Assembly (NCBI GenBank): GCA_012523095.1
Contig: JAAYJE010000126.1
Span: forward strand, 37,868-101,867
Direction of reading: 5' to 3'
DNA: 64,000 nt
Source of the DNA: Actinomycetota bacterium
GTDB lineage: Bacteria > Actinomycetota > Thermoleophilia > RBG-16-64-13
In this document: positions 42,183-60,264 of the stretch, in pieces
Layout of the letters: every line of letters begins with the position of its first letter
Numbering within the stretch: position 1 is the stretch's first letter
Notes under the pieces: generated by a model
Told to the model about the DNA's origin: nothing
The model's database searches: none
Seen by the model: only the letters and a program-made list of their open reading frames with translations
Translations under genes and position numbers: made by a program

Positions 42183-42218
42183 CCCGAGGGGGTGCCGACT
42201 CCCGAGGGGGTGCCGACT
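42183..42218. repeat. Perfect 18-bp tandem duplication
   Basis: CCCGAGGGGGTGCCGACT occurs twice without a gap, between the stop of the ACT gene and the stop of OYE paralogue 3. The second copy runs up to the last stop codon, so the duplication could act as a GC-rich terminator segment or is simply a recent slippage product. Confidence 0.8.
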
Positions 42219-44251
42219 CAGATGTCGCGGGCGACCGCGAAGGCCATGCGCGTGGCCTCGAGTACGTTCCTCGGTATCCAGCAGTCGCCTATCTGGTGGA
42301 ACTCCGGAGCGCAGAAACGCAGAGCGTCGGCTTCCGCATGTAGCGGCTGCAGTCCCGTGGCGTACACCACGGTATCAGCTCCGTAGAGCTTCGTACTCCC
42401 CACCTCGGCATCCGCCCGTATCACTTTGCTGAAGCTACTCGATTGTAGAACGGCTTCTTGCACCGTTGGGGAGGGCAGTGGGGTGAAGGCGTCTCCCACG
42501 TACTCACCCACAGCGCCTCCTTCCGTGATCTCCACCGCTCTCGTGGCGGTGACGACCTCGATGCCGTGCTTGTCGATCTCGTTCATCAGAGCTAGGGCAT
42601 GGACGGGATTGCCGCCGTCACTCAGGGTCTCCATCATCTCCATGATCGTGACTCTGCGCCCGAGCCCCGACAGGTAGATGGCCAGCTCTATACCGGCCAA
42701 CCCCCCGCCCAGGACGACCACCCTGCGCCCGGTCTTCTCCGGAAACAGGTAAGCCTGTTCCACACCCAAGACATCGTCGTCGATGCCGGGGATATCCGGT
42801 TTGCACGGACGCGCCCCCACTGCACAGATGATGGCGTCCGCTCCCTCCGCGGTGGCGCACTCCGGCGTCACCATGACGCCGAGCCGCACCTCCACCGGCA
42901 CCCGGGAGAGCATCCTCACCTGGTAGTCGAGGTACTCGGCAAGGAGTCTCTTGAAGGGCACCTTCCCCTCACATCTGAGGATACCGCCCAGACGAGACTC
43001 CTTCTCGAGGAGGACCACCTCGTGGCCCCGTTCCGAGGCGGTGAGGGCAGCCTGCATGCCGGCCACCCCGCCGCCCACGACCAACACTCTCTTCGGGGGG
43101 GTCGCCGGCAGCGCGTGCCGCACGTCCTCCTCGAAGCCGACCTCGGGGTTGACCGCACACCGGTTCTTGCGCTTGGTGGTGATACCGGCGAAGCACTCGA
43201 AGCAACGGATGCACGGCCTGATCTCGTCGGCCCGGCCTGCGCGCGCCTTCTTGGGCAGGTCGGGGTCGGCGAAGAGCGCCCGGGCGACCTGTACCACGTC
43301 CGCCTTCCCCGAAGCGATGATCTCCTCCATCATCTCCGGGTCGTTCAGGGCGCCGACCGTCGCGACCGGGGTACTTACGTGCTTCTTGATCTCCACCGCG
43401 TATTCTACGTTCACCCCGTCGGGTAAGAACATGCTGGGATGCGTCAGGGTGAACACCTGCGCGACCTCGTGGCTGCCGGCAGAGACGTGGATCAGGTCCA
43501 CCTTGCCGTCGAGCTGCTTGGCGATAGCTACTCCATCGTCGATGCCGTAGCCTCCCTCGTAGCCCTCCGACCCGCTGATGCGTATCTCTACCGGAAACCG
43601 CCGGCCGCACTTCTGTCTGATCCGTTCAACGATCGCCAGAGGGAGACGGCAGCGATTCTCGAGACTGCCGCCCCACCGGTCCTTGCGGTTGTTAACCTTG
43701 GGCGAGAGGAACTGGGCGAGCAACCACCCATGGCCGGCATGCAACGTCACCAGACCGAATCCGCAGAACTTGGCGAAGGCCGCCGCGTCGCCGTAGGCTT
43801 CGATAGTCTCTTCGATGACCTCCTCGGGCATAGCAGGAACAAACCAACCGAGGGCGTTCTCCCCGTCAACGGCTCCGTATATCTGGTTGCCCCGCACCGC
43901 CGATATGTACGCGTTGGCCCCACAGTGCTGAAGCTCGACGGCCGCCACCGCCCCATGCCGGTTGATGGCCGATGCCAGCTGATAGACGGGGGGAAGCGCC
44001 GTAGGGTCATCCAGGTACAGGTTGCTGAGCCCTATGGGGCCCCTCTTGCTGTCGGGCACCGCGGAACCGACGTTGACCGCCGCCGCGCCGCCGATCGCCT
44101 TGCGCTCGTAGAACGCGACGGTCTCGCTAAGCGGATGGTTCTTGGACGACAGATACTCGTAACCGACCGGAGCAACGAAGAGCCGATTGCGGAAGACCGT
44201 ATCTCCAAGCCTTATCGGAGAGAAGAGACGTGGGTATCTGCAGGTATACAT
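42218..44251 (-). CDS. OYE-family FMN/[4Fe-4S]/FAD enoate reductase, paralogue 3 of 4 (canonical type)
   Basis: 677 residues from the ATG at 44251 (MYTCRYPRLF), with AAGGAG 11 bases upstream; the TTG further up lacks support. FMN barrel with LGDTVFRNRLFVAPV, the canonical His pair motif LHAGHGWLLAQFLSP, NNRKDRWGGSLENR, then the cluster Cys CIRCFEC...C and FAD/NAD folds VLVVGGGVAGMQ and VVVLGGGLAGIELA. This is the only one of the four paralogues that keeps the standard active-site motif, and so resembles BaiCD/BaiH and 2,4-dienoyl-CoA reductase. It starts 20 bp after the start of the overlap with the molybdoenzyme gene end and closes the large minus-strand cluster. Confidence 0.9.
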   Translation of the reverse strand: MYTCRYPRLFSPIRLGDTVFRNRLFVAPVGYEYLSSKNHPLSETVAFYERKAIGGAAAVNVGSAVPDSKRGPIGLSNLYLDDPTALPPVYQLASAINRHGAVAAVELQHCGANAYISAVRGNQIYGAVDGENALGWFVPAMPEEVIEETIEAYGDAAAFAKFCGFGLVTLHAGHGWLLAQFLSPKVNNRKDRWGGSLENRCRLPLAIVERIRQKCGRRFPVEIRISGSEGYEGGYGIDDGVAIAKQLDGKVDLIHVSAGSHEVAQVFTLTHPSMFLPDGVNVEYAVEIKKHVSTPVATVGALNDPEMMEEIIASGKADVVQVARALFADPDLPKKARAGRADEIRPCIRCFECFAGITTKRKNRCAVNPEVGFEEDVRHALPATPPKRVLVVGGGVAGMQAALTASERGHEVVLLEKESRLGGILRCEGKVPFKRLLAEYLDYQVRMLSRVPVEVRLGVMVTPECATAEGADAIICAVGARPCKPDIPGIDDDVLGVEQAYLFPEKTGRRVVVLGGGLAGIELAIYLSGLGRRVTIMEMMETLSDGGNPVHALALMNEIDKHGIEVVTATRAVEITEGGAVGEYVGDAFTPLPSPTVQEAVLQSSSFSKVIRADAEVGSTKLYGADTVVYATGLQPLHAEADALRFCAPEFHQIGDCWIPRNVLEATRMAFAVARDI

Positions 44252-44270
44252 CTTGCCTCTCGCTCCTTCT

Positions 44271-46973
44271 CTATTCAATGAGCCAACTCGACAGCGACAC
44301 GCCTGTCGCCGGATCGTAGCGCCTGTTGAACGCCTCAGGGCACTCCCTGCGCCAAGCCTCCATCTCCTTGTCGGCGACCTTCTCGACCTCGACCAAGAAG
44401 CCGCTCACCACCATGCCGGTGGCCTTCTTGGAGGTCGGCCTACGGGGTGTGATGGTGTTGATCGCCCCTCCTCTGTCGAGGACACCCGGGATAATCGGGT
44501 CCCATCTGGCTCCGTGGTCCATATAGGCGACCCGCGGCATGAGGCGCTCCGTGACGTAGGCCCCGCCCAGGACGACGCCGCGCTCGTTGTAGATCTTGAC
44601 GATGTCGCCATGTTCGATGCCACGGGCTGCGGCCTCCGCCGGGTTGAGCCAGACCGGTTCGTAGAGATACCCATCGGGGCCTCTCACCTTCATGGTGGGG
44701 ATCTCCCTCGTCCAGGTGATGTCGTCACCCTGAGCGTGCATGCGCCAGCGCGGGTGGTTGGACATGCAAAGGAGCGGATATTCCTCGGCCCGCTCGCCGC
44801 TCAGGCGCTCGTCGTGACTCTCGCTGCTCTCGATCCAGGCCGGTACGGGCGGCCGCTCGGGATCGTCGGAGAAATGCCTCTCGAGCGCCGACGACGAGTA
44901 CTCCAGGAGTCCGGTGGGAGTACTGAGGGGATTGCTCTCGGGATCGCGCCAGAACTCACTCAATCCCGGCGGCTGTTCCCTGACCCGTGGATCGCAGGGG
45001 ATCACGAAGTACTGCTTCGCCTGCAGCTCTTCCCAGGACACCATACCTTCGACACCCGAGACCTCGAAGGAGAGTCGCTGCCGCTCCTCCACCGTCCCCC
45101 CACGCGTGTACTCTTCGCGGAGCCCCAGTTTTTCGGCCACTTTCGCCACGACCTCGAAGTCGGAGAGCGAGTCACCTTCAGGCTCGATGCACTCCTCTTC
45201 CAAGAAGATCGACGTGAAGACACCGCTCCCCATGTCGCTTCCGATGTCGAGCATCTCGAATCTTGTACCGACCGGCAGGACGATGTCCGCCAGAAGGCAG
45301 TCGTTCTCCAGCCAGGGGTGTTGCGCCACGATACACTCCACGGAAGGCTGCTGCAGAGCCTGGATGTATCTATTGGAATCGTTCCAGCAGGTGATCCAGC
45401 AAGGGGAATCGGTCCAGATCATGTGGATGGTAGAGCGTCCCGGGGCAGGGAAGGTGTGCTCGGTGAACTGCTCCTCGGCGCTCTCCAGGAACTTGCGGAC
45501 ACCCCACCAGCTGACGGGCGGGTCGAGAAGCGCCTCGTGTACCAGGCACTTGGGAATCGCCTGAAGGGGAGGGTTCTCCTCGAGTCTGGTGAGTTCCTGC
45601 ATCCTTGGATGATCGCCGGAATATAGGGGTGGGGTCAATTCGCTCGGATCCATACCGCCGGCCGGACGGACCTGCTCCGAGAAGTTGGGGAGATCAGGTC
45701 TGACCACGCCTTGATAGGGGAGCGGCAGCCATCTTCGCCATATCCACCACTCAAGCATCTTCGCCTGGTGGCGGCCGGGTTTGCCCAAGCCCTGCATGCC
45801 CAGCAACATCGCTTCGAGACGAGCGGGCTCGCTCGAGTACGGGCCCCTGATGGCCGGGCCGGCGTTGCCGTGGATGAGGCTGGTGGCTTTGCGGGCCCAT
45901 TGTCGCGCGAGCGCCTTGATGGTCCACACGGGAACGGCGCACTTCTCCGCCGCCCATGCCGGGGTCTTGGGCACACCGTCGGTCGTGCCCAGCACGTACT
46001 CCTCGAACTTCTCGAATCCGTAGGAATGGCCGGCGATGTACTCCTTGTCATAGGCGCCCTCGGTCAGCCAGACGTAGGCGATGGCGAGCTGCAACGCCGC
46101 ATCGGTATTCGGCAGTACCGGTATCCACTTGTCGGCGTGCACTGCAGCGCCGTAGTTGAGGTCCGGAGAGATGTACACGGACTCGAGACCTATCTGCGTG
46201 AGCCAGTAGCATAGGTTACTGGCCATCATGCCCTGAATCGCGTGAGGAGTAGTCTCCGGGTCGCAACCCCAGAATAGAAGCAACTCGCCGTGCTCGGCGA
46301 TATCGGGGTAGAGGTTGGCGGCAGGCATCATCTCGCCGACCGGCTCGCAGCCCCACACATGCTTGGCCCCCCAGGTCTGTCCTTCCCAGCTGTCGAAATT
46401 GCGCATCTGGATCGTGTATCCACCAAGCAGGGAGAGGAGCCTGTTCGCGCAGCCGTGGCTCGGACTGAGGTGTTTCGTCTCGCCGTGCATGTCGGCCTGG
46501 GAGAGCACGGCTTCCGGCCCGTAGGCCGCCCCTACCCGCTTCAGCTCCGCGGCCACGAGCTCCGCGGCTTCATCCCAGGAGATGCGGACGTAACCGCTCC
46601 TACCCCGGTTCTGAGTGTTGCGGCCGCCGGAGCCGGTGGAGCCGGGAGCCCCGGTAGGATCCCAGTCTATGCGCTTAAGCGGATAACGGACCCGGTTCTC
46701 CGAGTAGACCCGCTTCTTGTAAGCCAGGCCGAGCGGGCCGACGGGAGCACGCATAGGAGGCTCCAATATCTTCCCCCCGACCTCCATCTTCCAGGCATTG
46801 AAGTCCTTGGGGTCGTAGCTCATGTCGTAGTGGAGAGGCCGGATCCTCATGATCCGGCCTCTCCGTACGTCCACAAGAGTCGGTGGGCCCGAATCCCCGT
46901 TGCCGATCAGACCCGACCCGCGGATGACCTGCTTATCCCCACTGCTATCCACGCCAGTCGCGTCCGGTGTCAA
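44271..46973 (-). CDS. Molybdopterin enzyme resembling pyrogallol-phloroglucinol transhydroxylase large subunit
   Basis: A 900-residue member of the DMSO-reductase family. There is no N-terminal Cys cluster motif; instead the protein begins with a segment like that of the transhydroxylase alpha subunit (RGRIMRIRPL, WKMEVGGKIL), followed by GYVRISWDEAAELVAAEL and AYGPEAVLSQADMHG. DSWEG (Ser195) matches the Mo-ligating Ser region of that enzyme and His163 its proposed catalytic His (comparison from memory of the family). ADKWIPVLPNTDAALQLAIAY and DKEYIAGHSYGFEKFEEYVLG are close to the transhydroxylase. The family includes resorcinol hydroxylase and gut catechol dehydroxylases. No FeS small-subunit gene is adjacent. 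The start is TTG inside the upstream gene (29 bp overlap); the exact N-terminus is uncertain. Confidence 0.85.
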   Translation of the reverse strand: MTPDATGVDSSGDKQVIRGSGLIGNGDSGPPTLVDVRRGRIMRIRPLHYDMSYDPKDFNAWKMEVGGKILEPPMRAPVGPLGLAYKKRVYSENRVRYPLKRIDWDPTGAPGSTGSGGRNTQNRGRSGYVRISWDEAAELVAAELKRVGAAYGPEAVLSQADMHGETKHLSPSHGCANRLLSLLGGYTIQMRNFDSWEGQTWGAKHVWGCEPVGEMMPAANLYPDIAEHGELLLFWGCDPETTPHAIQGMMASNLCYWLTQIGLESVYISPDLNYGAAVHADKWIPVLPNTDAALQLAIAYVWLTEGAYDKEYIAGHSYGFEKFEEYVLGTTDGVPKTPAWAAEKCAVPVWTIKALARQWARKATSLIHGNAGPAIRGPYSSEPARLEAMLLGMQGLGKPGRHQAKMLEWWIWRRWLPLPYQGVVRPDLPNFSEQVRPAGGMDPSELTPPLYSGDHPRMQELTRLEENPPLQAIPKCLVHEALLDPPVSWWGVRKFLESAEEQFTEHTFPAPGRSTIHMIWTDSPCWITCWNDSNRYIQALQQPSVECIVAQHPWLENDCLLADIVLPVGTRFEMLDIGSDMGSGVFTSIFLEEECIEPEGDSLSDFEVVAKVAEKLGLREEYTRGGTVEERQRLSFEVSGVEGMVSWEELQAKQYFVIPCDPRVREQPPGLSEFWRDPESNPLSTPTGLLEYSSSALERHFSDDPERPPVPAWIESSESHDERLSGERAEEYPLLCMSNHPRWRMHAQGDDITWTREIPTMKVRGPDGYLYEPVWLNPAEAAARGIEHGDIVKIYNERGVVLGGAYVTERLMPRVAYMDHGARWDPIIPGVLDRGGAINTITPRRPTSKKATGMVVSGFLVEVEKVADKEMEAWRRECPEAFNRRYDPATGVSLSSWLIE
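46833..46863. repeat. 13-bp perfect inverted repeat inside the molybdoenzyme coding region
   Basis: GAGAGGCCGGATC-CTCAT-GATCCGGCCTCTC lies in codons about 37-47 of the molybdoenzyme, about 110 bases after its start. In mRNA it would form a very stable hairpin near the 5' end of the gene. It may be incidental to the Arg-rich reading (GRIMRIRP) or may influence translation or processing of this message. Confidence 0.7.
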
Positions 46974-48319: not shown

Positions 48320-48742
48320 CATTCGCCGCTTCGTGAACTTCGCCCAACAGAGCTCGGAACTGTAGAGCCATCTAGACTGATGCGGCATGCGATCGGAGCA
48401 ACCGTGGTTGGGCGTCGGATATTCCTTGTTGCCCCGCAGACCCACGAGCCTGCCGTCTTCGACCGTTGCGATAGCCCGCATTGGTGGATGCAACCCGGAG
48501 AGGCCCGGCAGACGATGTGTGAAGACCGGCGAAGAACAGAGGGCGACGGTGGAGGCCTTCACTGCTTGGCGAGGCAGCCCTCCGTTCGAGGTCACTCTGC
48601 GCACCGAGGGCGCCTCCATCTCTTTGTTGAGACCGGGCCGGGAATTGAACCGTTCCCTTCCGTCGATCATCTCTTCGGTGACCTCCTTGGTGCTGAGGTC
48701 GACGTGGATTATCTTTCAGTATGTGTAGGGTTCTCGCCCCAT
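48320..48742 (-). pseudogene. Decayed N-terminal fragment of a molybdopterin oxidoreductase
   Basis: AGAAGGAGCGGCAC precedes an ATG at 48742 that opens MGREPYTY and then meets TGA (48718-48716); the same frame continues KIIHVDLSTKEVTEEMI. About 200 bases on, the Cys cluster motif CRASPGCIHQCG is in the +1 frame, and the continuation AIATVEDGRLVGLRGNKEYP and HGCSDRMPHQSRWLYSSE is back in the first frame, which requires a one-base deletion after the cluster. The match stops about 50 bp before the UroD-family gene. This is the start of a [4Fe-4S]-containing molybdoenzyme, now broken by a nonsense codon, a frameshift and loss of the remainder. Confidence 0.65.
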
Positions 48743-48788
48743 ATGTGCCGCTCCTTCTGCGATTCAGCCGGGCCTGGGCACACCTACG

Positions 48789-49640
48789 TCAACCGGCGCC
48801 TCCGGACAGGTTGATATCTTCCCCGGTTATGTACTTGGCTTTGTCGGAAACGAGGAACGACACCAGGTCGGCGATGTCTTGCGGCGTGCCCAGCCTGCCC
48901 AGAGGGATGGGCGGCGGTCCCGCCTGCCCGGTGGGACCGGTAGTGCCGGCCTTCAGCGAGTCAGACACGCTCATGCCCCGGTCGGCGGCCTGCTTCGCGA
49001 CGCTGTCGTCGCGGAAATTGGTGTCGAAGCCGCCGGGATTGATCGCATTGACGTTGATCTTATAGGGTGCCAGCTCGCGTGCCAGAGTCTTCATCAGGCC
49101 CAGGAGCCCGTGCTTAGAGGCCGCGTAACCGGCCCCTCCCGGGTAGGGCCCAATACCGGCCATGGACGAGATGAGAACGACCTTCTTACCTTCCGGATCC
49201 GGGATCATGACCTCGGCCACGGCTTTGCAGACCAGGAAGGCTCCGGTGAGGTTCACATCGATGAGCATCCGCCAGGTCTCTTCGTCCAGGTCCACCACCG
49301 GCACCGGCACCGGGCCACGCACACCCACACAGTGCACCAGGATGTCGATCTTCCCGCACTCCTCCAAGACCCAGGCCACCATCGCGTCCACTTCAGCACT
49401 CTTGCTGATATCATAGGCCAGAGGCACACCTTTCCTGCCCTGGGCCCGGATCTCGGCGACCACGTCGTCGAGGCCCTTCCAATCCTGGTCCTCAGGCCGG
49501 ATACTCTCCGGCACGGCATACTTGTCGACCACCACTACGTCGGCGCCGTCTTTGGCCAGTTGTACCGCGATACCGCGCCCCATGCTCCGTTTGGCCGCCG
49601 CCCCGGTGACCAGGGCGACTTTGCCGTCGAGAGAGCTCAT
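48789..49640 (-). CDS. Short-chain dehydrogenase/reductase (SDR)
   Basis: Start at ATG 49640, overlapping the stop of the upstream SDR gene (ATGA); 283 residues. Cofactor loop TGAAAKRSMGRGIAVQ, an Asp-bearing VVVDKYA segment with an extra insertion (VPESIRPEDQDWKGLDD), the catalytic Ser in VVLISSMAGIG and Tyr/Lys in AGYAASKHGL, final GEDINLSGGAG. The insertion near residue 50-70 is longer than in typical SDRs and is similar to that of cyclic-alcohol dehydrogenases. It works next to another SDR, so a pair acting on different hydroxyl groups is likely. Confidence 0.88.
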   Translation of the reverse strand: MSSLDGKVALVTGAAAKRSMGRGIAVQLAKDGADVVVVDKYAVPESIRPEDQDWKGLDDVVAEIRAQGRKGVPLAYDISKSAEVDAMVAWVLEECGKIDILVHCVGVRGPVPVPVVDLDEETWRMLIDVNLTGAFLVCKAVAEVMIPDPEGKKVVLISSMAGIGPYPGGAGYAASKHGLLGLMKTLARELAPYKINVNAINPGGFDTNFRDDSVAKQAADRGMSVSDSLKAGTTGPTGQAGPPPIPLGRLGTPQDIADLVSFLVSDKAKYITGEDINLSGGAG

Positions 49641-50467
49641 AGTAGGCCCCTCTCTTTCAGATAGGCTTCGATGTTGAAGGTGGCCTCCTGAGCCAACAGC
49701 GGCTGACCTCCGGCCACGCATAAGGTCTGGCCGGTCACGTAGTCGGAGAGCTCAGAGGCGAAGAACAGGGCTGCGCCCGCGATGTCCTTCGGGCTCCCTA
49801 CTCTGCCGAGGGGCACCTCCCGCTTGGACACGGCCGCAAAGAAGGCATCCCGCTCGGGTCCCGGAGGCATGAGCGAATCCCAGAAGGTGGTTTCAATCGG
49901 GCCCGGGACGATGTTGTTGACGCAGATGTTGTATGGAGCCAGTTCGAAGGCGAGGTTGAGAGAGAGTCCGATGGCGCCTGCTTTGGCGGCGTGATAGTGG
50001 AGCACCGACACCACCGGCGATACGGCTCCCATCGAGGAGATGAAGACGATCCTCCCCCGCTTATTCTTCTTCATGGTAGGGATCACGGCCTCGCTCACGA
50101 GCCAAGGCCCCTTCATGTTGATGGCGACTATCCGATCCCACTCCTCTTCGGTGAAGGTACCCGTGGCTCCCGACCCATGGGTGCCCGGCACGCCTCCGGC
50201 GCAGTTGATGAGCACGTCCACAGTCCCCAAGTCGTCCAGCGTGCCCGCGACCATCTCGTCGACCTGAGCCTTGTTGGTGATGTCGGTTCTGAACGCAAGC
50301 GCCTTCCGCCCCAAGGCTTCGACCTCGCCCGCGACACTCAGGCAGCCGTCCAGGTCGATGTCGCACACCACCACGTCCGCCCCCTCTTCGGCGAATTTGA
50401 GGGCGATACCTCTACCCATACCCTTGGCTCCGCCGGTGACGATGGCCACCTTGTTCTCGAGTAGCAT
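49637..50467 (-). CDS. Short-chain dehydrogenase/reductase (SDR)
   Basis: The ATG at 50467 has TTGGAG seven bases upstream and is preferred over the track start at 50485; 276 residues. VTGGAKGMGRGIALKF, VVCDIDLDGC (NAD type), NCAGG, catalytic Ser in VFISSMGAVS and Tyr/Lys in LHYHAAKAGAI. The C-terminus is longer than usual (ATFNIEAYLKERGLL). Its gene is coupled to the next SDR gene and follows the AOR gene by 47 bp. Confidence 0.88.
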   Translation of the reverse strand: MLLENKVAIVTGGAKGMGRGIALKFAEEGADVVVCDIDLDGCLSVAGEVEALGRKALAFRTDITNKAQVDEMVAGTLDDLGTVDVLINCAGGVPGTHGSGATGTFTEEEWDRIVAINMKGPWLVSEAVIPTMKKNKRGRIVFISSMGAVSPVVSVLHYHAAKAGAIGLSLNLAFELAPYNICVNNIVPGPIETTFWDSLMPPGPERDAFFAAVSKREVPLGRVGSPKDIAGAALFFASELSDYVTGQTLCVAGGQPLLAQEATFNIEAYLKERGLL

Positions 50468-50513
50468 CTTTCGCTCCAAGCTCATGGGAACGGCATCGAA
50501 ACCGTTCCCGGTT

Positions 50514-52400
50514 TCAGAGTATGTCGTCCAGCCCCAGAGAGATGACCCGCTCTCTGTCGATCGCCCCGGTCTCGGGATCGAAGCCCATGGCCTCGTAGAA
50601 CCCCCGCTTGAGCGCCTCCGAATCGACGGTCACACCCTTCAGCTCGCCCACCTGAAGAGGAGGGTTGCCTCTCGCCCGCTCGGGCAGCTTGAAGTCGTCG
50701 GGCTTGAACCCTTCGCGCAGGTTGAAGGCGTGTAGGAGGGTGGTGATCCGCCTGCCCGTCTCCACTATCTCTTCATAGTCGAGCCCCCAGCCGGTGATGG
50801 CGTTCATGCAGCCCAGGAAGTCCAGGGGCATGCTGTCGATCCCGAAAAGGCAGGCGCCCGAGGTGTTGACCCAATGCTGCCAACCGGCGAGGATGGCATG
50901 GTATACGCCCTTGTCGGTAGGATCATAACGCGGCATCGAGAAGGGAACGCCCATTCCCGCATAGGCCCTCTCGTTCACGCCGCCGTGCTCGGCGAAGGCG
51001 GTCCCGCCGCGAGTATGCCGGCCGGGTGTGGAGTCGGAGATGTAGGTGGCGCCCCAACCGGGAAAACAGCGCGGATCGTGCATGGCGAGGAGCTCGCCGC
51101 CCGCATGCATGGCGAACTGCTCCGCTCCTTCCCCGATCTTCTCAGCCGCCCATTTGGCACCGTCGGCCAGGATGTCGCCGAGGCCCTCACGCCGGCACAT
51201 CATCTCCAACACCGCCACCTGGGCGTCGCTGTTGCCCCAGGTGAGCTCATGACCGTTGGTGTCGCTCTTGGTGATCAGCCCATTCTCGTAGCACTCGACC
51301 GCGAAGGCCATGGTGGCTCCGGCCGAGATGGTGTCGAGCCCATACAAGTTGCAGAGTTCGTTGGCATAGATGAGCGACTCCATATTGTCGTTCAGGCACA
51401 TGGGCCCGAAGGCCGCCAAGGTCTCGTACTCCGGCTTGTGTGTGTCGCGAACCGGGTACTTGCCCTCCTCGACCGTGAGCACCGAGCCACACGCGACCGG
51501 GCAGCCTGCGCAGGCATACTTCTTGGTCACGTACTTGACCATCCCGTTCCAGGCCACCGAGTCCCACTTCCACTCGGGGAAGTCCTCCACATTATTGCCG
51601 GCCCAATTCTTGATGGGCACGTCGTGGTCGTGCATGTGCATGACCATCGCCCCTGGAGTGCCGCCGTGGGTCAGCCCGAAGAACATGCCCGAGGGGTTCT
51701 CCCTCGTCTCACGCATCATCTCCTTCATCATGGCCTGGATGGCCGGCCTGTCGACCACCTCCGGCTTCATGGATCCGGTGCAGGCCACGGCCTTGAGGTT
51801 CTTGGAACCCATGACCGCCCCCAACCCCGACCTCGCCGCGGCCCTCCCCCGGTCGTTGATGACCGCGGCTATCCTGGCGAGGCGCTCGCCGGCCGGTCCG
51901 ATGACCGCCACCTTCAAGTTCTTGTTGTCGTTCTCTTCACGGAGGAGTTCCTCGGCGACAGTGGTGTCCTTGCCCCACAGATGGCGGGCATCCCGGAGCT
52001 CCGGCCTGCCGTTGTCGATCAACAGGTAGACCGGGTGTTCCGCCTTCCCCTGGAAGAACACGATGTCATAGCCGGAGGCCTTGAAAGTGTTCGCGAAGTC
52101 GCCGCCGCTGTTGGCGTCGCCCCAGTATCCGGTGAGAGGCGACTTCCCCATGGTGGAGAAACGGCAGGTGGAGTACACGCCCGAGAGTGTGAGCGGCCCC
52201 GTGCCGATGCCGAATATATTGTCCGGGCCCAGCGGATCCACGCCCGGCTTCATACGCTCCAGGATGACCCGAGCCCCGATGCCGTAACCGCCCACGAAGC
52301 GGCGGGCGACTTCATCAGACAACTCCTCCTCGTGCATCGTGCCGTTCGCCAGGTCGACGAACAGCAACCTGCCCATGTAACCGTATCGCGCCCTAGCCAC
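50514..52400 (-). CDS. aor: Aldehyde:ferredoxin oxidoreductase (tungsten enzyme)
   Basis: A 628-residue protein starting at GTG with AGGAGGCCG upstream. The AOR N-domain is seen as GRLLFVDLANG and FVGGYGIGARVI, the pterin contacts as FSTMGKSPLTGYWGDANSGG (quoted as one block), and the [4Fe-4S] Cys as CAGCPVAC (about 297-304), with a further Cys near SGACLFG. Members oxidise aldehydes to acids, or reduce acids and aromatic carboxylates, with ferredoxin as partner; the tungsten-dependent benzoyl-CoA reductase BamB is a more distant relative. Inside this cluster it probably handles an aldehyde intermediate or supplies reduced ferredoxin. Confidence 0.93.
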   Translation of the reverse strand: MARARYGYMGRLLFVDLANGTMHEEELSDEVARRFVGGYGIGARVILERMKPGVDPLGPDNIFGIGTGPLTLSGVYSTCRFSTMGKSPLTGYWGDANSGGDFANTFKASGYDIVFFQGKAEHPVYLLIDNGRPELRDARHLWGKDTTVAEELLREENDNKNLKVAVIGPAGERLARIAAVINDRGRAAARSGLGAVMGSKNLKAVACTGSMKPEVVDRPAIQAMMKEMMRETRENPSGMFFGLTHGGTPGAMVMHMHDHDVPIKNWAGNNVEDFPEWKWDSVAWNGMVKYVTKKYACAGCPVACGSVLTVEEGKYPVRDTHKPEYETLAAFGPMCLNDNMESLIYANELCNLYGLDTISAGATMAFAVECYENGLITKSDTNGHELTWGNSDAQVAVLEMMCRREGLGDILADGAKWAAEKIGEGAEQFAMHAGGELLAMHDPRCFPGWGATYISDSTPGRHTRGGTAFAEHGGVNERAYAGMGVPFSMPRYDPTDKGVYHAILAGWQHWVNTSGACLFGIDSMPLDFLGCMNAITGWGLDYEEIVETGRRITTLLHAFNLREGFKPDDFKLPERARGNPPLQVGELKGVTVDSEALKRGFYEAMGFDPETGAIDRERVISLGLDDIL

Positions 52401-52409
52401 ACCGGCCTC

Positions 52410-54509
52410 CTACACCGTGACCGCGGTCTGCAGACCGGCGTTGATGGCATCGCGGATGAGGCCGGGCTGCACGCAGTCGCCGACGGTATAGATCTCGGGC
52501 ACCTTACCCTGTAATGTCGCCGCAAGGTCGGGCTGGGGCGTAAGCGGCAGCGCTGAGACGAAGGTGTCTGCCTGGAGCGTGACTTTGATGCCGTCTTGGC
52601 CGACGATGGTGAGCCCCCTGTCATCGATGCCCACGTATTCCCTCACACCGGTCAACATCTTGACGTCGTTCTTGTTGAACCAGATCTTCAGATATCCCCA
52701 AAGGGCAGGGACCATCCCCTCGCCGAACTCTTCGGCCCTGTCCACGATGGTCACCTTGCGGCCGCGCTTGGCCAAGAACTCGGCCAACTCGCAGCCCTGC
52801 AGCGCCCCGCCGATGACCACCACGTTCCTGCCGATCTTGGGCATGTAAAGCTTGGAGAGCGACCGGAGCGTATATGGAGTGAGGTACCGGGCGTAGAACT
52901 TGAGCATCTGATGTAGGTCGCCTCCCGCGACCACGTTCCTATGGTCGATGCCTTTTATCTCGGGGATGGTCTGCTGTGCGCCGGTAGCGACGAACACCAC
53001 GTCCGGCTTCATCTCTTCGACCACCGCCACGTCGGCTTCCTTACCCAACCGAATCTTCACGCCCAGTTTGCGGAGTTGCCTGCTCAGATAGTCCACCATG
53101 AGCATGACGTCCTCCGGATGTGGACCCTTCACCATGGCGGCGATAGGCAGCAGGCCCCCCAGGATCTTCTGTTTCTCCATCAGCGTGACATCATGTCCGC
53201 GGAGCGCCGAGACCCGAGCCGCCTCCATACCGCCGGGACCGCCGCCTATCACGAGCACGTTCTTCTTCGCGTCCGCCTTATCGATGGTGTTGAACGGGTA
53301 ACCCATGAGGGCGTTGATACGGCAACGCTTGGTGCCGAGGCAGTTGTCGCAACCGGTGCACGGGGCTATGTCGTCCAGCCGGCCTTCCTTCACCTTGTTC
53401 GCGTATTCGGGGTCGGCGTGCAGACGTCTGGTCATGCCGATGAAGTCGGCCATGCCCTGCTCGAGGATCTGCTCGCCTAGATCGCAGTCGAGTCTACCCA
53501 CCACGATCACAGGTACGCTCACCGCGCTCTTCACACCCGCGGCTATCAGCATGTTGGCGCCGGCGCCCTTCTGCGCGGTGTAGTACACCTCGGGGAAATC
53601 CTCCAGAGGGATGGGGGCGTCGGGATAGAACAGCGCGTCGCAGAGGTAGGCGGCTTCGTGGTAGCCGATCCAGTGGCTGCGCACCATGATGCCGTCGGCC
53701 CCGGCCTTCTCGATGAGACGCGCGTGCTCCTTGGCGGTCTCGTTGGTGATGCAGTTGTTGTCGTCGATGCCGCAGAGTTGGCCGGCTTCCAGACCGTTGA
53801 TGCACACCGTCACCGGGAAGTCCTCGCCACACAGTCTCTTGATCTCAGTGACCACCTGGCAGACGAAGCGGCTGCGATTCTCAGCGGTACCGCCGTATTC
53901 ATCGATGCGCCGGTTCCAGAACGGCGAAAGGAAATTGTGGAGCAGATGGCTGCTCGACGCGTTGATGTCGACCCCGTCGAAGCCCGCCTTCTTGGCGCGG
54001 AGGGCGCAGTTCCCGAACTTGTCTACTATGTCCTCGATCTCAGCGACGGTGAGCGGATGCGGCCTCTCGTTATGGAAATCGGTCTCGCAGTGCACCACCA
54101 CGTCGGAGGCCGCGTAAGGCAGCCCCTTGTACGGGGGATCGGGCGAGAACGACAGGTGGGCCTGCCAAGTGCCGTCGTGGTTCATCTGCATGAAAGTGGG
54201 GCATCCGTGTTTGTGGATGACCTCGGCGATCTGCGCCATCCCCGGGATGAACTTGTCGTCGTCCAGACGGTAGCGGTCGCGCCAGCGGCAGCCCGCCGGG
54301 TAGTCCACCGTCGGCGACTCCACGATGATAAGGCCCGTGCCCCCCCGCGCCATGGCCTCGTAGAAGGCCAGGACCTCCGGTCTCATCACAGTGTCGGACT
54401 CGTGCCACATCATCACGCCGGCGCCGGTCTTGATGATGCGGTTACGGGTGGTCACCGATCCGATCTTGCCGGACTCGAGAAGCTTGCTGTACTTGGGGTT
54501 ATCGGTCAC
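52410..54509 (-). CDS. OYE-family FMN/[4Fe-4S]/FAD enoate reductase, paralogue 4 of 4
   Basis: 699 residues starting at GTG with AAAGGG upstream. FMN barrel with IGSVTTRNRIIKTGAG, the modified active-site segment INASSSHLLHNFLSP in place of HGAHGYL, NRRIDEYGGTAENR, then the cluster Cys CTGCDNC...C, FAD fold VLVIGGGPGG and second fold VVVIGGALQGCELA. Shares the N...H active-site variant with paralogues 1 and 2. It lies 9 bp before the AOR gene and after the NTF2-like genes, so it is embedded in the glycyl-radical cluster. Confidence 0.88.
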   Translation of the reverse strand: MTDNPKYSKLLESGKIGSVTTRNRIIKTGAGVMMWHESDTVMRPEVLAFYEAMARGGTGLIIVESPTVDYPAGCRWRDRYRLDDDKFIPGMAQIAEVIHKHGCPTFMQMNHDGTWQAHLSFSPDPPYKGLPYAASDVVVHCETDFHNERPHPLTVAEIEDIVDKFGNCALRAKKAGFDGVDINASSSHLLHNFLSPFWNRRIDEYGGTAENRSRFVCQVVTEIKRLCGEDFPVTVCINGLEAGQLCGIDDNNCITNETAKEHARLIEKAGADGIMVRSHWIGYHEAAYLCDALFYPDAPIPLEDFPEVYYTAQKGAGANMLIAAGVKSAVSVPVIVVGRLDCDLGEQILEQGMADFIGMTRRLHADPEYANKVKEGRLDDIAPCTGCDNCLGTKRCRINALMGYPFNTIDKADAKKNVLVIGGGPGGMEAARVSALRGHDVTLMEKQKILGGLLPIAAMVKGPHPEDVMLMVDYLSRQLRKLGVKIRLGKEADVAVVEEMKPDVVFVATGAQQTIPEIKGIDHRNVVAGGDLHQMLKFYARYLTPYTLRSLSKLYMPKIGRNVVVIGGALQGCELAEFLAKRGRKVTIVDRAEEFGEGMVPALWGYLKIWFNKNDVKMLTGVREYVGIDDRGLTIVGQDGIKVTLQADTFVSALPLTPQPDLAATLQGKVPEIYTVGDCVQPGLIRDAINAGLQTAVTV

Positions 54510-54543: not shown

Positions 54544-55014
54544 TCAGTTGCCCTTCTTGGATGCGTCCACTGTGTAGGCCGCAGCCTCAACGTCCGGGAC
54601 CATCGCCTGCCAGAAGAAGCGGACGACGGCTATCTTGAGCTCCCCGTTTTCGTCGATCTCAAGTTCGTAGAGGGGCAGGTAGTCCTTCTGCACCTTCACG
54701 TTGTTGGTGGCCGTGTCGTAGACGGTGGCCTGCAGGAACGCCACCGCCACCAATCGCTTCTCGTCTACGAAGATGTCGTGCACCACGAACGTCTCGTAGT
54801 CCTCCGGGTGGCCGGTAAGCATATTGTAGAAGTCGTCGCGGCTGTTGATGGCCTGTTCGGGCCCGCCGAAGACATACATGTAAGGGATGAACGTCAAATC
54901 CGCCGCGAAGTACTTGTCCATACGATGGACGGTCTCCGCACTCTGCGCGCCGGCATTGTACTCGTCGAAGTAGTCCCTCATCCACTTCAATATCTCGTCG
55001 TACGTCGGCTTCAT
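54544..55014 (-). CDS. NTF2/SnoaL-like protein, paralogue 1
   Basis: 156 residues. The first helices YDEILKWMRDYFDEYNAG are followed by HRMDKYFAADLTFIPYMYVFGG and the curved beta-sheet strands of an alpha+beta cone (ETFVVHDIFVDEKRLVAVAF, IAVVRFFWQAMV). The fold includes ketosteroid isomerase, SnoaL cyclases and the bile-acid dehydratase BaiE. A sister with the same block order follows at 55060. Isomerase or dehydratase activity on a ring compound is a guess from fold and context only. Confidence 0.7.
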   Translation of the reverse strand: MKPTYDEILKWMRDYFDEYNAGAQSAETVHRMDKYFAADLTFIPYMYVFGGPEQAINSRDDFYNMLTGHPEDYETFVVHDIFVDEKRLVAVAFLQATVYDTATNNVKVQKDYLPLYELEIDENGELKIAVVRFFWQAMVPDVEAAAYTVDASKKGN

Positions 55015-55059
55015 CCCCTCTAACCTCCCGTACTGTCCCTTCGAGCGGTTCTCCGGTCT

Positions 55060-55527
55060 CTATGCCTGTTCGCGCTGCCGCTTCCAGTCTCTCTCGAAGA
55101 CATCGTCGATCTCCAGCGCTCCGGCCGGCAGTACCTCCCAGAAGAAGTCGAGCCGCTCGATCTTCGGCCTGCCCTCCTCCTCGATGAGAGGGTAGCGTGC
55201 CAGATAACGCTTGCTCAGCAACAGCTGATTCGTGTCGCGGTCCCAAAGCTCGGCTTTGATCTGCGCGACAAAGACCTGCCGCCGCTCGTCGATGACCACG
55301 TCTTCCGCGGTGAGCTTCTCGATGCCGGAGGGATGCGAACAGAGCACCTTGTACCAGTTGTCACGTCCCGCCACCTTGCCCACGTGGTCGATGAACGGGT
55401 TGAACACGAAATCCTTGGCGAAGTACTCGTCCATGCGGTGAATGGTATCGGGGTTCTGACCGTATTTATCGAAAGCGTCGAAATACTCGTCAATCCAGGC
55501 GAGTATCTCCTCGTAGGTCATTCTCAT
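55060..55527 (-). CDS. NTF2/SnoaL-like protein, paralogue 2
   Basis: ATG at 55527 with GGAGG upstream; 155 residues. TYEEILAWIDEYFDAFDKYG, HRMDEYFAKDFVFNPFIDHVG and ERLDFFWEVLP match the paralogue at 54544 (HRMDKYFAADLTFIPY, VVRFFWQAM) block by block. The two may form a heterodimer or act on successive intermediates. Located between the cupin gene and its sister in the glycyl-radical cluster. Confidence 0.7.
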   Translation of the reverse strand: MRMTYEEILAWIDEYFDAFDKYGQNPDTIHRMDEYFAKDFVFNPFIDHVGKVAGRDNWYKVLCSHPSGIEKLTAEDVVIDERRQVFVAQIKAELWDRDTNQLLLSKRYLARYPLIEEEGRPKIERLDFFWEVLPAGALEIDDVFERDWKRQREQA

Positions 55528-55553
55528 CGGCTTATCCTCCATCCCGGGTCGAC

Positions 55554-56048
55554 TTACTCGAGCACCCTCTTGTAGTTCGGATCCGCGGCCGCTTCGAACA
55601 TGACGATGGGGGTATCGATCCTCTTGAAAGTGACGGGGCAGTGCTCCACTCCTTTGGGCACGTGGATGAGGCAGGTCTTGGTGATGGTGTGTTTCTCTCC
55701 ACCGATCAGGAACTCGATCTCCCCTCCCAGCTCCCGCGGGTAGTTGCGGTTCGTGCCGACGAAGCCGACGACCTCGTCGAAATCATGGGTGTGGGGGATC
55801 TCGATGGCAACCGGCTTCCCGCCGGGCAGTCCCCACAGGATCTCGCAGCCCGCGAACAACGGACAACCTGGGACTATGGAATCCATGATCCCGAGCAGCA
55901 TCGTCCTATCGAGGATCCTGCCCTCCTTCTCCTGTTCTTCCATAGCCTCGAGCCAGCCGGGAGGCGGGGGCGGCATGAGATCCTCGGTCACGAAGTTCCT
56001 CCCGTACTTCGACTCCGTGGCGCCGTCGCTTCTACTCTCTTGGCTCAT
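55554..56048 (-). CDS. Cupin-domain protein, paralogue 3 of 3
   Basis: 164 residues, ATG with GGAG seven bases upstream. N-terminal KYGRNFVTEDL, cupin motif 1 in PHTHDFDEVVGFVGTN, ELGGEIEFLIGGEKHTITKT, motif 2 in PKGVEHCPVTF and closing DPNYKRVLE, all matching the proteins at 8994 and 9558. The presence of one copy inside the glycyl-radical cluster and two beside the BKACE genes suggests that the family is tied to related catabolic pathways. Confidence 0.72.
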   Translation of the reverse strand: MSQESRSDGATESKYGRNFVTEDLMPPPPPGWLEAMEEQEKEGRILDRTMLLGIMDSIVPGCPLFAGCEILWGLPGGKPVAIEIPHTHDFDEVVGFVGTNRNYPRELGGEIEFLIGGEKHTITKTCLIHVPKGVEHCPVTFKRIDTPIVMFEAAADPNYKRVLE

Positions 56049-56651: not shown

Positions 56652-57563
56652 CTACACAGTCACCTTGCAGGCGAGTTGCTTGGCTTTGACGATCTCACAC
56701 GCGGCCTTCATGAAGTCTTGCGAAGGGGCATCGGCGGTCGGCATCTCATAGTCCAATCCCAGCATCTCGTACTTCTGCTGACCGTAGCGATGATAGGGCA
56801 GCAGGTGCACGGTCGCCCCCGGCGACGTAGTGGCGACCAGGTCGGCGATGTCGGAGATGGCATCGCTCGAATCGTTGAACCCCGGCACCACCGGCACCCG
56901 CACTACGAAGGGTACACCGCTCGCCGCCACTTCCTTGAAGTTGCGCAGTATGGCCTCGTTGGTCCTACCGGCCTGGGCGCGGTGGATCTTGGGGTCGATG
57001 TGTTTGATGTCGAAATACACCAGGTCGACGTAGGGGAGCAGGCTCTTCAAGCCCTCGGTATTCCCCTGCCCCGCCGTGTCCAGGGTGGTGTGGAACCCCG
57101 CCTCCTTACAGCGCTTGAGCAGCGCTAGGGCGAATTCGGGTTGCAGCAGGACCTCACCGCCCGAGAGCGTGACGCCTCCGCCCGAATCGCGGTAGAAATC
57201 GACGTCGCGTTCGACCACCTTGAACACCTCGTCAACCGTCATCTCCTTGCCGGTGATCCGCATGGCATCGTGCGGGCATGCTTCGACACAGTCGCCGCAC
57301 ATTGTGCAAAGGTCGCGGTCGATCTCGATGCCGTCCGGTCCCACCGTGATCGCCCCTTCCGCGCAGGCTTCCACACACCGGTAGCACCTCTTGCAGATAG
57401 ACTGCCGATGCATGAGCTCCGGATCAAGGTTCTGAGATTCAGGGTTGGAGCACCACACGCAGCTCAACGGACAGCCCTTGAAAAAGACGGTAGTCCGGAT
57501 ACCCGGACCATCGTCGATACTGTACCGCTGTATGTTGAACACGGTCCCTTTGGCGCCTGCCAC
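56652..57563 (-). CDS. Glycyl-radical-enzyme activating protein (radical SAM)
   Basis: 303 residues from GTG, AAGGAG nine bases upstream. The radical-SAM cluster is GCPLSCVWC (CxxxCxxC, Cys31/35/38) after SIDDGPGIRTTVFFKG; a ferredoxin-type insert with two Cys sets (CKRCYRCVEAC and CTMCGDCVEAC) follows at about 57-100, as in activases of choline lyase, benzylsuccinate synthase and decarboxylases but not PFL. TLSGGEVLLQPEFAL is the conserved glycine-rich strand. It abstracts the hydrogen from the radical Gly of the enzyme encoded immediately upstream; the two genes are separated by a strong hairpin. Confidence 0.95.
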   Translation of the reverse strand: MAGAKGTVFNIQRYSIDDGPGIRTTVFFKGCPLSCVWCSNPESQNLDPELMHRQSICKRCYRCVEACAEGAITVGPDGIEIDRDLCTMCGDCVEACPHDAMRITGKEMTVDEVFKVVERDVDFYRDSGGGVTLSGGEVLLQPEFALALLKRCKEAGFHTTLDTAGQGNTEGLKSLLPYVDLVYFDIKHIDPKIHRAQAGRTNEAILRNFKEVAASGVPFVVRVPVVPGFNDSSDAISDIADLVATTSPGATVHLLPYHRYGQQKYEMLGLDYEMPTADAPSQDFMKAACEIVKAKQLACKVTV

Positions 57564-57596
57564 TGCCGGTCACTCCTTGCTCTCTCACGCTGACAT

Positions 57597-57630
57597 GCGG
57601 GAGCGCCGCCCCCGGGGGCGGCGCTCCCGC
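57597..57630. terminator. 34-bp perfect palindrome between the glycyl radical enzyme and activase genes
   Basis: GCGGGAGCGCCGCCCCC followed directly by its reverse complement: 17-bp arms and no spacer. It lies 17 bases after the stop of the glycyl radical enzyme. Without a T tract it probably lowers read-through so that the activase is made in smaller amounts than its target, or protects the upstream mRNA. Confidence 0.6.
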
Positions 57631-57647
57631 CGAAAGCAGGTCCTTCG

Positions 57648-60203
57648 CTAGCCTACCTCATGCATGGTCCGCTCGACGATCTCGTCCTGGAGTTCCGGCG
57701 GCAGGTCCACGAAGTAGGCGCTGTAGCCGCCCACCCGCACCAACAGATCCTTGTGAGCCGCCGGCTCCTTACGGGCCTTCATGAGCTCTTCAGCGCTGTG
57801 GATGTTGAACTGGATGTGCCAACCCTCGCGCTTCATGAACGTCTTGATGAGAGAGGCTACCTTGCTCAGCTTCTCAGGCGAATTGAGCACGGCCTTCGAG
57901 AACTTCATGTTGTGGGCGACGCCCGCACATTCGTACGGGGTCGGATACTTGGTGGCCGACAAGATGAGGGCCGTCGGGCCGTTGACATCGCCGCCGGCCA
58001 TGGCCGAAGTACCCCCGTCGTAGATGGGGGTGCCTGCGTAGCGTCCGTTGGGCATGGCGCCGACGGCCTTGCCCTGGGTCACGTGGCCGGCAGCCGCACC
58101 CTTGAACAGCATGGGTCTCTCGCCGGTGATGGGGTCAGGCCGGCTCTGCAGTATCCTCTGCGTGTCGCGCGACGCGCGGACGTACCACTCGTCCACATAG
58201 TCGTCGTCATTGCCGTACTTAGGGGCCTTCAGACACATCTGGCGGATGTCTTCATGACCCTCCCAGTTGGCGTCCATGGCCTCCAACAGCTGAGCCATGG
58301 TGACCTGCTTCTCATCGAACACCAGATACTTGACGGCGGCCAGGTAGTCGGCGCAGTCGCAGATGCCCTTGTCGCCCACCCACGACATCTTGCCGATGGG
58401 GTATCGACAACCGCCCTCCCGGGAAGCGAGCCCGGCGGGGATGCAGTCGCGGAAGAGCATGCCGGCGCGCAGCCCGCTCATGGGGCTGTTCGCGATCTCA
58501 GTGGTCCACCAGATGAAGTAATGGTCGCGCATCTTCTCCACGAAGTAGTCTTCCTGCTTCAGAAAAGCTTCATAGAGCTCATCGATCGACTTGAAGTCGC
58601 GGGGGTCGCCTGTGTGCAGGCCCACCTGTTTGCCGGTGCGTGGGTCGAAGCCGTCGTGCAGGGCCACCTCCATGACCTTGGCCTGCACCAAGTTGAAGGC
58701 GCCGGCCATGTGCTCCGCACACTCCAGGTGATAGCCCAGGCAGCCGCTCGCGCTCCAGTTGCAGGCATCCTCTATGGGTATGCCGCGATCCAGGTAGCGC
58801 CGCGTGCCCAACTCATCGTTCAGGAAGGCGGGATTGCCTCCCCCGAAGTCACGGTTGCGTTCCAGGGCATGGATCAGGAAAGCCTCGTCCTGATCTTCGT
58901 GATACCGAACGTATACGGCCGGTTCGGACAGGTGGACCTGTACCATGACTTCAAGGATCATCCAGGAGAGCTCGTTGGTGAGATCGTTGCCGTCCTTGTC
59001 CCGGCCGCACAGAGTCACGTTAGGCAGCTGGCTGCCCGGCGCTGCACGGTGTTCGCGCTTGATGGTGACCAGGTTCTCGACCTCGCGGATCTTCAACCAC
59101 ATGGCGCCGATCAGCTCGGCCGCCTGCCGGCGGGTGAGTCTACCGCTCTCGATATCCGCCTTGTAGTATGGATACCAGAACTGGTCGATCCTTCCTATCC
59201 CCACCTCAGCGCGTTCGGGGCTCTCTTTCCAGGCCGCCAGATGCATGAAGCGCACCGACTGGACGGCTTCCCAGAAGTCGCGCGGGGGCTCGGCCGGCAC
59301 GTGCTCGCACACGTCCGCGATCTTCTCAAGCTCGGCCTTGCGGACCGGGTCGGTCGTCTTGGCGGCCATCTCACGCGCGAGGTCGGCGTGCCGCTTAGCG
59401 AAGGCGACAACGGCCTCGAACATGATGACGATAGACTTGAGGAGGTACCACTTGCGGAGCGCGTTGGCGCTCGAACGGTCCTCTAGGGCCCCTTCCGCCT
59501 TCATCTTATCCATCTCGGCTTTGGCCAAGCCGATCACGTAGTTGAAGCCCTTGTGAAGCACTTCAGCGGTCAGCATGATCACTCCGCCGCCCATGGCGCC
59601 GTATCCCTGGAAGAGGCCGCGGTCGGGATTCTCGCGCACGCCCCTGCCTTCGAGGATCATGGCGTGGTCGAACAGCAGGTCGAAGTGCTCCTTGCCCAGC
59701 TCCTCCTCCAGCGCAACATTCACGTAGTTGACCGGGTTCATGTGCTCGACCCAGTACTCGGCGTCCGCCTTCAGCTTCTCCAGGTCTTCAGGGTCGATCA
59801 CAGTGGAGGAGATGTCGCTCAGCTTGCGGTCGAAACGGCCGCTCTCGCACATGGCGAGGATCTCGCGCGGCTTGACGGCGCAGAGCGTGTTGTTACCGCG
59901 GATGAACTTCGTGGACGAGCCGACGATGATCTCGTCGTCACGGATCAGGATGGGGCAGTTCTCCATCCTCTTCTGGAAGGCCTTGGCCCACCGGAAGTCG
60001 ACCGGCATCTGCTCGGTCTCCTTCCATGATTCGGTGAAGAGGAGCGTGTCGTCGACGTACACTTGAGGAGCCGCGTCTTCCCATTCCTTCTTGAGCTTTT
60101 TGAGGCGATCAGTCATAACGACCACGGATCGGATCTCCTCGGCGGCCCTGGGGTCGATCTTGCCTTGTACCACGGGGGTGATGTTCGAGGTCTCAGGCGC
60201 CAT
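57648..60203 (-). CDS. Glycyl radical enzyme of unknown reaction
   Basis: 851 residues from the ATG at 60203 (AAGGGAG upstream); the track start is 5 residues earlier. The PFL-like barrel is complete. The thiyl Cys is in NWSASGCLGYH (about residue 488) and the radical Gly in VRVGGYSAYF (about 826), 25 residues from the end. Eliminase-type enzymes (choline, diol, isethionate, hydroxyproline) and 4-hydroxyphenylacetate decarboxylase carry G-C-x-E at the Cys; here the position is Gly (GCLG), so the general-base Glu is missing. The second Cys of PFL (CC) is also absent. No small subunits of benzylsuccinate-synthase or HPA-decarboxylase type are encoded nearby. A palindromic operator precedes the gene. 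Confidence 0.92.
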   Translation of the reverse strand: MAPETSNITPVVQGKIDPRAAEEIRSVVVMTDRLKKLKKEWEDAAPQVYVDDTLLFTESWKETEQMPVDFRWAKAFQKRMENCPILIRDDEIIVGSSTKFIRGNNTLCAVKPREILAMCESGRFDRKLSDISSTVIDPEDLEKLKADAEYWVEHMNPVNYVNVALEEELGKEHFDLLFDHAMILEGRGVRENPDRGLFQGYGAMGGGVIMLTAEVLHKGFNYVIGLAKAEMDKMKAEGALEDRSSANALRKWYLLKSIVIMFEAVVAFAKRHADLAREMAAKTTDPVRKAELEKIADVCEHVPAEPPRDFWEAVQSVRFMHLAAWKESPERAEVGIGRIDQFWYPYYKADIESGRLTRRQAAELIGAMWLKIREVENLVTIKREHRAAPGSQLPNVTLCGRDKDGNDLTNELSWMILEVMVQVHLSEPAVYVRYHEDQDEAFLIHALERNRDFGGGNPAFLNDELGTRRYLDRGIPIEDACNWSASGCLGYHLECAEHMAGAFNLVQAKVMEVALHDGFDPRTGKQVGLHTGDPRDFKSIDELYEAFLKQEDYFVEKMRDHYFIWWTTEIANSPMSGLRAGMLFRDCIPAGLASREGGCRYPIGKMSWVGDKGICDCADYLAAVKYLVFDEKQVTMAQLLEAMDANWEGHEDIRQMCLKAPKYGNDDDYVDEWYVRASRDTQRILQSRPDPITGERPMLFKGAAAGHVTQGKAVGAMPNGRYAGTPIYDGGTSAMAGGDVNGPTALILSATKYPTPYECAGVAHNMKFSKAVLNSPEKLSKVASLIKTFMKREGWHIQFNIHSAEELMKARKEPAAHKDLLVRVGGYSAYFVDLPPELQDEIVERTMHEVG

Positions 60204-60264
60204 TTTGTCTCCCTTCACGAATGCAAGACGGGGCAGCCCGAAGGCCGCCTCCGTTTATCCTCAT

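Follow-up and report, generated by a model that had tools for sequence, protein, structure and literature searches.

Relatives among known enzymes

The closest described relatives of the molybdoenzyme studied here, P0001, are the catalytic subunits PgtL of pyrogallol-phloroglucinol transhydroxylase (also AthL; Pelobacter acidigallici, structure 4v4c) and RhL of resorcinol hydroxylase (Azoarcus anaerobius), which are Ser-coordinating and cytoplasmic (PMC10100899). PgtL resembles P0001 in fold, domain order, Ser ligand and His/Asp pair, and in having no N-terminal cluster, and the two proteins are 36% identical over 808 aligned positions; it differs in that P0001 lacks Tyr152, Tyr404, Tyr560 and Trp354 of PgtL, has no adjacent small-subunit gene and lies in a different operon. 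RhL belongs to the same Ser-coordinating group as PgtL according to PMC10100899. The DMSO/TMAO reductases DorA and TorA form a sister group in our tree and are likewise Ser-ligated bis-MGD proteins without an N-terminal cluster, but they are only 24–27% identical to P0001 in a fold alignment and have a Trp where P0001 has His163. Acetylene hydratase and the gut catechol dehydroxylases belong to the same superfamily, and an acetylene-hydratase-like gene is found in the corresponding operon of relatives; they differ from P0001 in having a ligand region of the Cys type and a 4Fe-4S motif at the N-terminus, and the acetylene-hydratase-like protein of that operon is only about 25% identical to P0001. 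We report here that P0001 comes from an uncultured actinobacterium, is a member of a subfamily sister to pyrogallol transhydroxylase, and has no FeS partner gene on its contig.

The P0001 gene and its operon

The window (the whole 64,000-nucleotide stretch analysed) includes the following features around the P0001 gene.

42218–44278, minus strand: old-yellow-enzyme (OYE)/FadH/BaiCD-like flavoenzyme with an FMN domain, a Cx2Cx2Cx11C cluster motif and a FAD/NAD(P)H domain; likely start ATG 44251
44271–46973, minus strand: P0001, transhydroxylase-like molybdoenzyme large subunit; open frame of 900 codons
46485–46487 (His163), 46392–46394 (Asp194) and 46389–46391 (Ser195), minus strand: active-site codons of P0001
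46945–48300, minus strand: UroD-superfamily protein; best PDB match CdmB of Acetobacterium
48353–48516, minus strand: 5' remnant (15 + 40 residues) of an acetylene-hydratase-like (AHlike) molybdo/tungsto-enzyme gene
48599–48751, minus strand: broken pieces of AOR2, a second gene for an aldehyde oxidoreductase
48789–49721, minus strand: SDR dehydrogenase of the conserved cluster
49637–50485, minus strand: SDR dehydrogenase of the conserved cluster; best PDB match BbsD
50514–52400, minus strand: AOR, an enzyme resembling aldehyde:ferredoxin oxidoreductase; part of the conserved cluster
52410–54509, minus strand: second OYE/FadH-like flavoenzyme of the conserved cluster
54544–56048, minus strand: two small proteins that look SnoaL/NTF2-like when judged by eye, and a cupin-like protein; no Pfam match; conserved with the cluster
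56652–60218, minus strand: glycyl radical enzyme (57648–60218) and activase (56652–57563), conserved with the cluster

The 900-residue protein of the initial annotation is a real open frame, but it lies on the minus strand (a plus-strand reading of 44271–46973 is broken by stops) and is probably slightly shorter. The family alignment picks up at about residue 8. The GTG found there, at 46952, overlaps the stop codon of UroD, and the alignment together with the operon context makes it the probable start, which gives a protein of 893 amino acids. Translation of OYE probably begins at ATG 44251, 19 nucleotides beyond the stop of P0001, and a AGAAGGAG ribosome-binding site precedes this start. Because of this overlap on one side and this short gap and ribosome-binding site on the other, UroD, P0001 and OYE very probably form a single operon. 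The translation of P0001 contains no Cys cluster at its N-terminus, as had been noted, and the UroD-family and OYE neighbours are also as first described.

The four-Cys cluster motif of OYE is close to those of NCR/FadH. The UroD-superfamily protein lacks the C-terminal Cys that MtaA-type Zn methyltransferases should have. Several families are strongly expanded in the genome (G000, 2.5 Mb), with 25 Molybdopterin-domain matches, 37 OYE/FadH matches and about nine relatives of the UroD protein. Identity of the two SDR proteins as phloroglucinol reductases is unsupported; their best matches are BbsD and carveol dehydrogenase. The glycyl radical enzyme, which scores far under every NCBIfam cut-off, and its activase are kept with the cluster in the related genomes G001 and G004, and the activase also in G002. 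Elsewhere in the window, 28303–29790 encodes a UbiD-family decarboxylase whose nearest relative is VdcC, subunit C of hydroxyarylic acid decarboxylase. With genes for UbiD, AOR, OYE, SDR and a glycyl radical enzyme, this region may serve the anaerobic breakdown of aromatic or alicyclic compounds.

Family placement and active site

The best PDB match of P0001 by sequence is PgtL (4v4c), over its full length and with an E value of 6e-136, which is far above chance and far ahead of the DMSO/TMAO reductases; the Pfam AhtL-like domain 1 scores 25.4, just below its cut-off of 27. An AlphaFold model built from 40 sequences (pLDDT 87, pTM 0.89) also finds 4v4c as its best Foldseek match (E 3e-78, TM 0.82), followed by DMSO/TMAO reductases (TM 0.73–0.76) and the remaining listed structures (TM 0.54–0.63). 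In trees of about 130 sequences, with PgtL, DorA/TorA and acetylene hydratase among them, P0001 falls inside the PgtL-type family with support of 1.0, and DorA/TorA is the sister group. The kinship to transhydroxylase proposed in the initial annotation is thus borne out by tree, sequence match and fold, and P0001 is almost certainly a member of the RhL/PgtL family. Within it, P0001 belongs to a 103-member subfamily (support 0.80–0.86) opposite the one that holds PgtL. Since RhL lies outside the sequences of the tree, this subfamily might prove to be RhL-like; we know of no substrate, product or activity for any of its 103 members.

Other placements fare worse. P0001 lies outside the DorA/TorA clade (support 1.0), and formate dehydrogenases give far weaker matches in both sequence and fold. 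The gut catechol dehydroxylases, which had been named as relatives, are reported to group with acetylene hydratase and not with transhydroxylase (PMC7028382). P0001 does not group with acetylene hydratase, has no N-terminal 4Fe-4S site and lies with PgtL and DorA in the tree, so that kinship to the catechol dehydroxylases beyond superfamily level is rejected.

The DMH and DSWEG segments had been assigned to the sites of the catalytic His and the Mo-ligating Ser, and the alignment agrees: P0001 H163, D194 and S195 align with PgtL H144, D174 and S175, which are kept in 100/100, 99/100 and 100/100 of the subfamily members with data, respectively. PgtL Tyr152, Tyr404 and Tyr560, substrate-pocket residues whose positions we checked in the sequence, are absent together with Trp354 from the whole 103-member subfamily, P0001 included; the three tyrosines are present in 20 of the 27 sequences outside it.

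The FeS small subunit

No small FeS partner gene lies beside P0001, as the initial annotation had stated, or anywhere on its contig: a Pfam PF13247 profile search of the genome gave no match on C81 (101.9 kb), which holds the window, and when eight FeS subunits were compared by BLAST with the open reading frames of the window and the rest of C81, no transhydroxylase-type FeS gene was found. The BLAST search backs the profile negatives, since a PF01208 genome search had missed the window's own UroD. The other contigs, however, carry at least eight transhydroxylase-type FeS genes, each beside a transhydroxylase-type large subunit, so the different electron source that had been suggested for P0001 is not required.

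The closest paralog of P0001 (69% identical, contig C128) has an FeS gene beside it, as does the next relative, L048, and the FeS protein encoded on C128 is a full-length match to the small subunit of PgtL. P0001 and its orthologs in the genus branch together as an orphan clade (support 0.98) within these FeS-linked relatives, so the orphan state of P0001 is, on this branching, a derived loss of the FeS gene. Adjacency to an FeS gene (found in 74 of 91 scorable subfamily members and missing in 17) has changed about 12 times within the subfamily by parsimony. Because tandem large subunits with one common FeS gene occur (L087, L093 and L104), sharing of an FeS subunit between large subunits is plausible, and we put the chance at about even that P0001 borrows in trans an FeS subunit encoded with a paralog.

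Operon comparison

The related genomes G003 and G004 have the cluster order OYE-AOR-SDR-SDR-AOR2-AHlike-UroD-OYE with no P0001, and in G012, whose operon has neither P0001 nor UroD, OYE directly follows AHlike. The AHlike protein of G004 matches acetylene hydratase (2e7z) with an E value of 1e-124. Orthologs of the window's OYE are 69–81% identical in G001–G004 and G012. P0001 with OYE directly downstream is kept in three genomes, G000 (the window), G001 and G002, and the last two retain AOR2 and AHlike. The comparison uses contigs of metagenome-assembled genomes, some of them broken inside P0001 orthologs: in G002 one contig (end of C19) closes with AHlike and then the 5' end of the P0001 ortholog, and another (start of C29) opens inside the P0001 ortholog and continues with OYE, so that the order in G002 would be AHlike-P0001-OYE when the two contigs are read together. 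The P0001-OYE pair of G001 is on a different contig from its AHlike gene.

The window has in-order remnants of both missing genes between the SDR and UroD genes. AOR2 is represented by an N-terminal piece with a stop (48659–48751) and a near-C-terminal piece (48599–48649), and AHlike by 55 residues of its N-terminus in two parts that are 93% and 80% identical to G004, with one frameshift and the rest deleted. A search of G000 for an AHlike ortholog returns this remnant only. Misassembly is an unlikely cause of the missing gene, since the remnants of two genes stand in order and carry a stop and a frameshift. In the simplest history that fits these arrangements, P0001 would have been inserted beside the AHlike gene, and AOR2 and AHlike would then have decayed in G000. 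This apparent exchange of molybdoenzymes within one operon gives a handle on function, in that two distinct molybdo/tungsto-enzymes occur in one pathway cluster and in G000 the gene for one has decayed beside the other. P0001 may have taken over the AHlike reaction, and a changed pathway substrate would leave an identical trace.

The linkage of P0001 to UroD and OYE pointed out in the initial annotation stands for OYE, which is beside P0001 in all three genomes. It does not stand for UroD as a conserved partner: UroD is also present in the AHlike version of the operon, the G012 operon lacks it, and another P0001-type copy in G002 has an OYE-like gene upstream in its place. The UroD gene of G003 (L176, 7174–8597) is split over two frames, by assembly error or decay.

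Possible function

By analogy with its relatives, it is fairly probable that P0001 hydroxylates or dehydroxylates a cyclic or phenolic compound. In the joint explanation that we favour, at a little better than even confidence, P0001 would serve as catalytic subunit in a Ser-ligated bis-MGD molybdoenzyme of the cytoplasm, within the sister subfamily of PgtL. A substrate hydroxyl would bind Mo as in PgtL, His163 and Asp194 would shuttle protons in PgtL-like acid-base catalysis, and at the metal a hydroxyl or oxygen of a phenolic intermediate, or of a cyclic enol or enone, would be added, removed or moved. If there is net redox change, electrons would most likely travel by way of a paralog's FeS subunit, such as that on C128, used in trans; if turnover is redox neutral, the FeS subunit may be unneeded. 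The downstream OYE would reduce one of the substrates or products in this pathway, probably an enone or dienone. P0001 would have entered the existing catabolic operon OYE-AOR-SDR-SDR-AOR2-AHlike-UroD-OYE, and the later decay of AHlike and AOR2 in G000 would have left it in the slot before OYE.

That P0001 catalyses a redox-neutral transhydroxylase or hydratase-type reaction and so needs no FeS subunit at all is, taken by itself, unlikely, though it deserves some weight. The reaction of PgtL, the family prototype, involves no net redox change, the operon enzyme of relatives resembles acetylene hydratase, which is likewise net redox neutral, and orphan large subunits recur in the subfamily. However, PgtL itself retains its FeS subunit, the FeS gene is adjacent in most scorable subfamily members (74/91, above), and the acetylene-hydratase branch also includes the reductive catechol dehydroxylases (PMC7028382).

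It is rather improbable that OYE, with its FMN, 4Fe-4S, FAD and NAD(P)H sites, has replaced the FeS subunit as direct partner and made P0001 part of an NAD(P)H-linked two-protein molybdoenzyme. The 19-nucleotide gap and ribosome-binding site, the retention of the pair in G000, G001 and G002, and the NCR/FadH-like four-Cys motif would fit such a partnership, but the same OYE is tied to the AHlike enzyme in operons without P0001 (G003, G004 and G012), so that its role is probably older than P0001. In addition, OYE/FadH homologs are numerous in the genome and normally reduce enones alone, and P0001 retains positions that are near-invariant in FeS-linked members. More doubtful still is a replacement between branches of the superfamily within one operon, in which P0001 would now do the work of a W/Mo enzyme of the acetylene-hydratase/catechol-dehydroxylase type, with OYE replacing FeS as redox partner.

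P0001 is very unlikely to be a plain pyrogallol-phloroglucinol transhydroxylase. PgtL is its closest characterised homolog and shares its His, Asp and Ser, but identity is just 36% and all four PgtL residues named above are missing throughout the subfamily. Moreover, the same genome encodes a protein (L017, contig C153, 47263–49872) that is 79% identical to Pelobacter PgtL, has identical pocket residues (Y152, Y404, Y560 and W354 kept) and has an FeS gene adjacent. L017 is likely a true pyrogallol transhydroxylase in this uncultured actinobacterium, so it is very probable that G000 has a dedicated enzyme for pyrogallol transhydroxylation and that P0001 does something else. If the whole subfamily is named "pyrogallol hydroxytransferase", models of polyphenol turnover under anoxic conditions would be led astray; comparing these residues tells close PgtL homologs from other members.

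P0001 keeps 164 of 168 near-invariant positions (those at least 97% conserved in FeS-linked subfamily members), which is no proof of a kept FeS interface; other orphans depart at 0–4 of these positions and most FeS-linked members at 0–6. Its dN/dS against three orthologs is about 0.13–0.19. P0001 is thus under purifying selection, and these values give no sequence sign of decay or of release from family-wide constraint. That P0001 is a decaying, non-functional orphan, as loss of its FeS partner gene and decay of neighbouring genes might suggest, is highly improbable given its intact frame, the retention of all catalytic positions and this low dN/dS.

Distribution of the subfamily

The subfamily sister to PgtL is represented by at least 579 confirmed stretches of relatives in our genome scan, with several members in G000. 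Its hosts include rumen and termite-gut Oscillospiraceae, sediment Dehalococcoidia, sediment Actinobacteria and sulfate reducers. The RpoB protein of G000 shares 91% identity with its counterparts in Actinomycetes bin.430 (the genome with L093) and Actinobacteria bacterium RBG_16_64_13 (the genome with L109), which places this uncultured actinobacterial metagenome-assembled genome in their group. A genus named RBG-16-64-13 is reported to be active in thawing peat (PMC10805028). We note that in two Dehalococcoidales loci (L078, 12636–13280, and L094, 12780–13361) a gene that is UbiX-like by eye follows an orphan large subunit of the P0001 subfamily.
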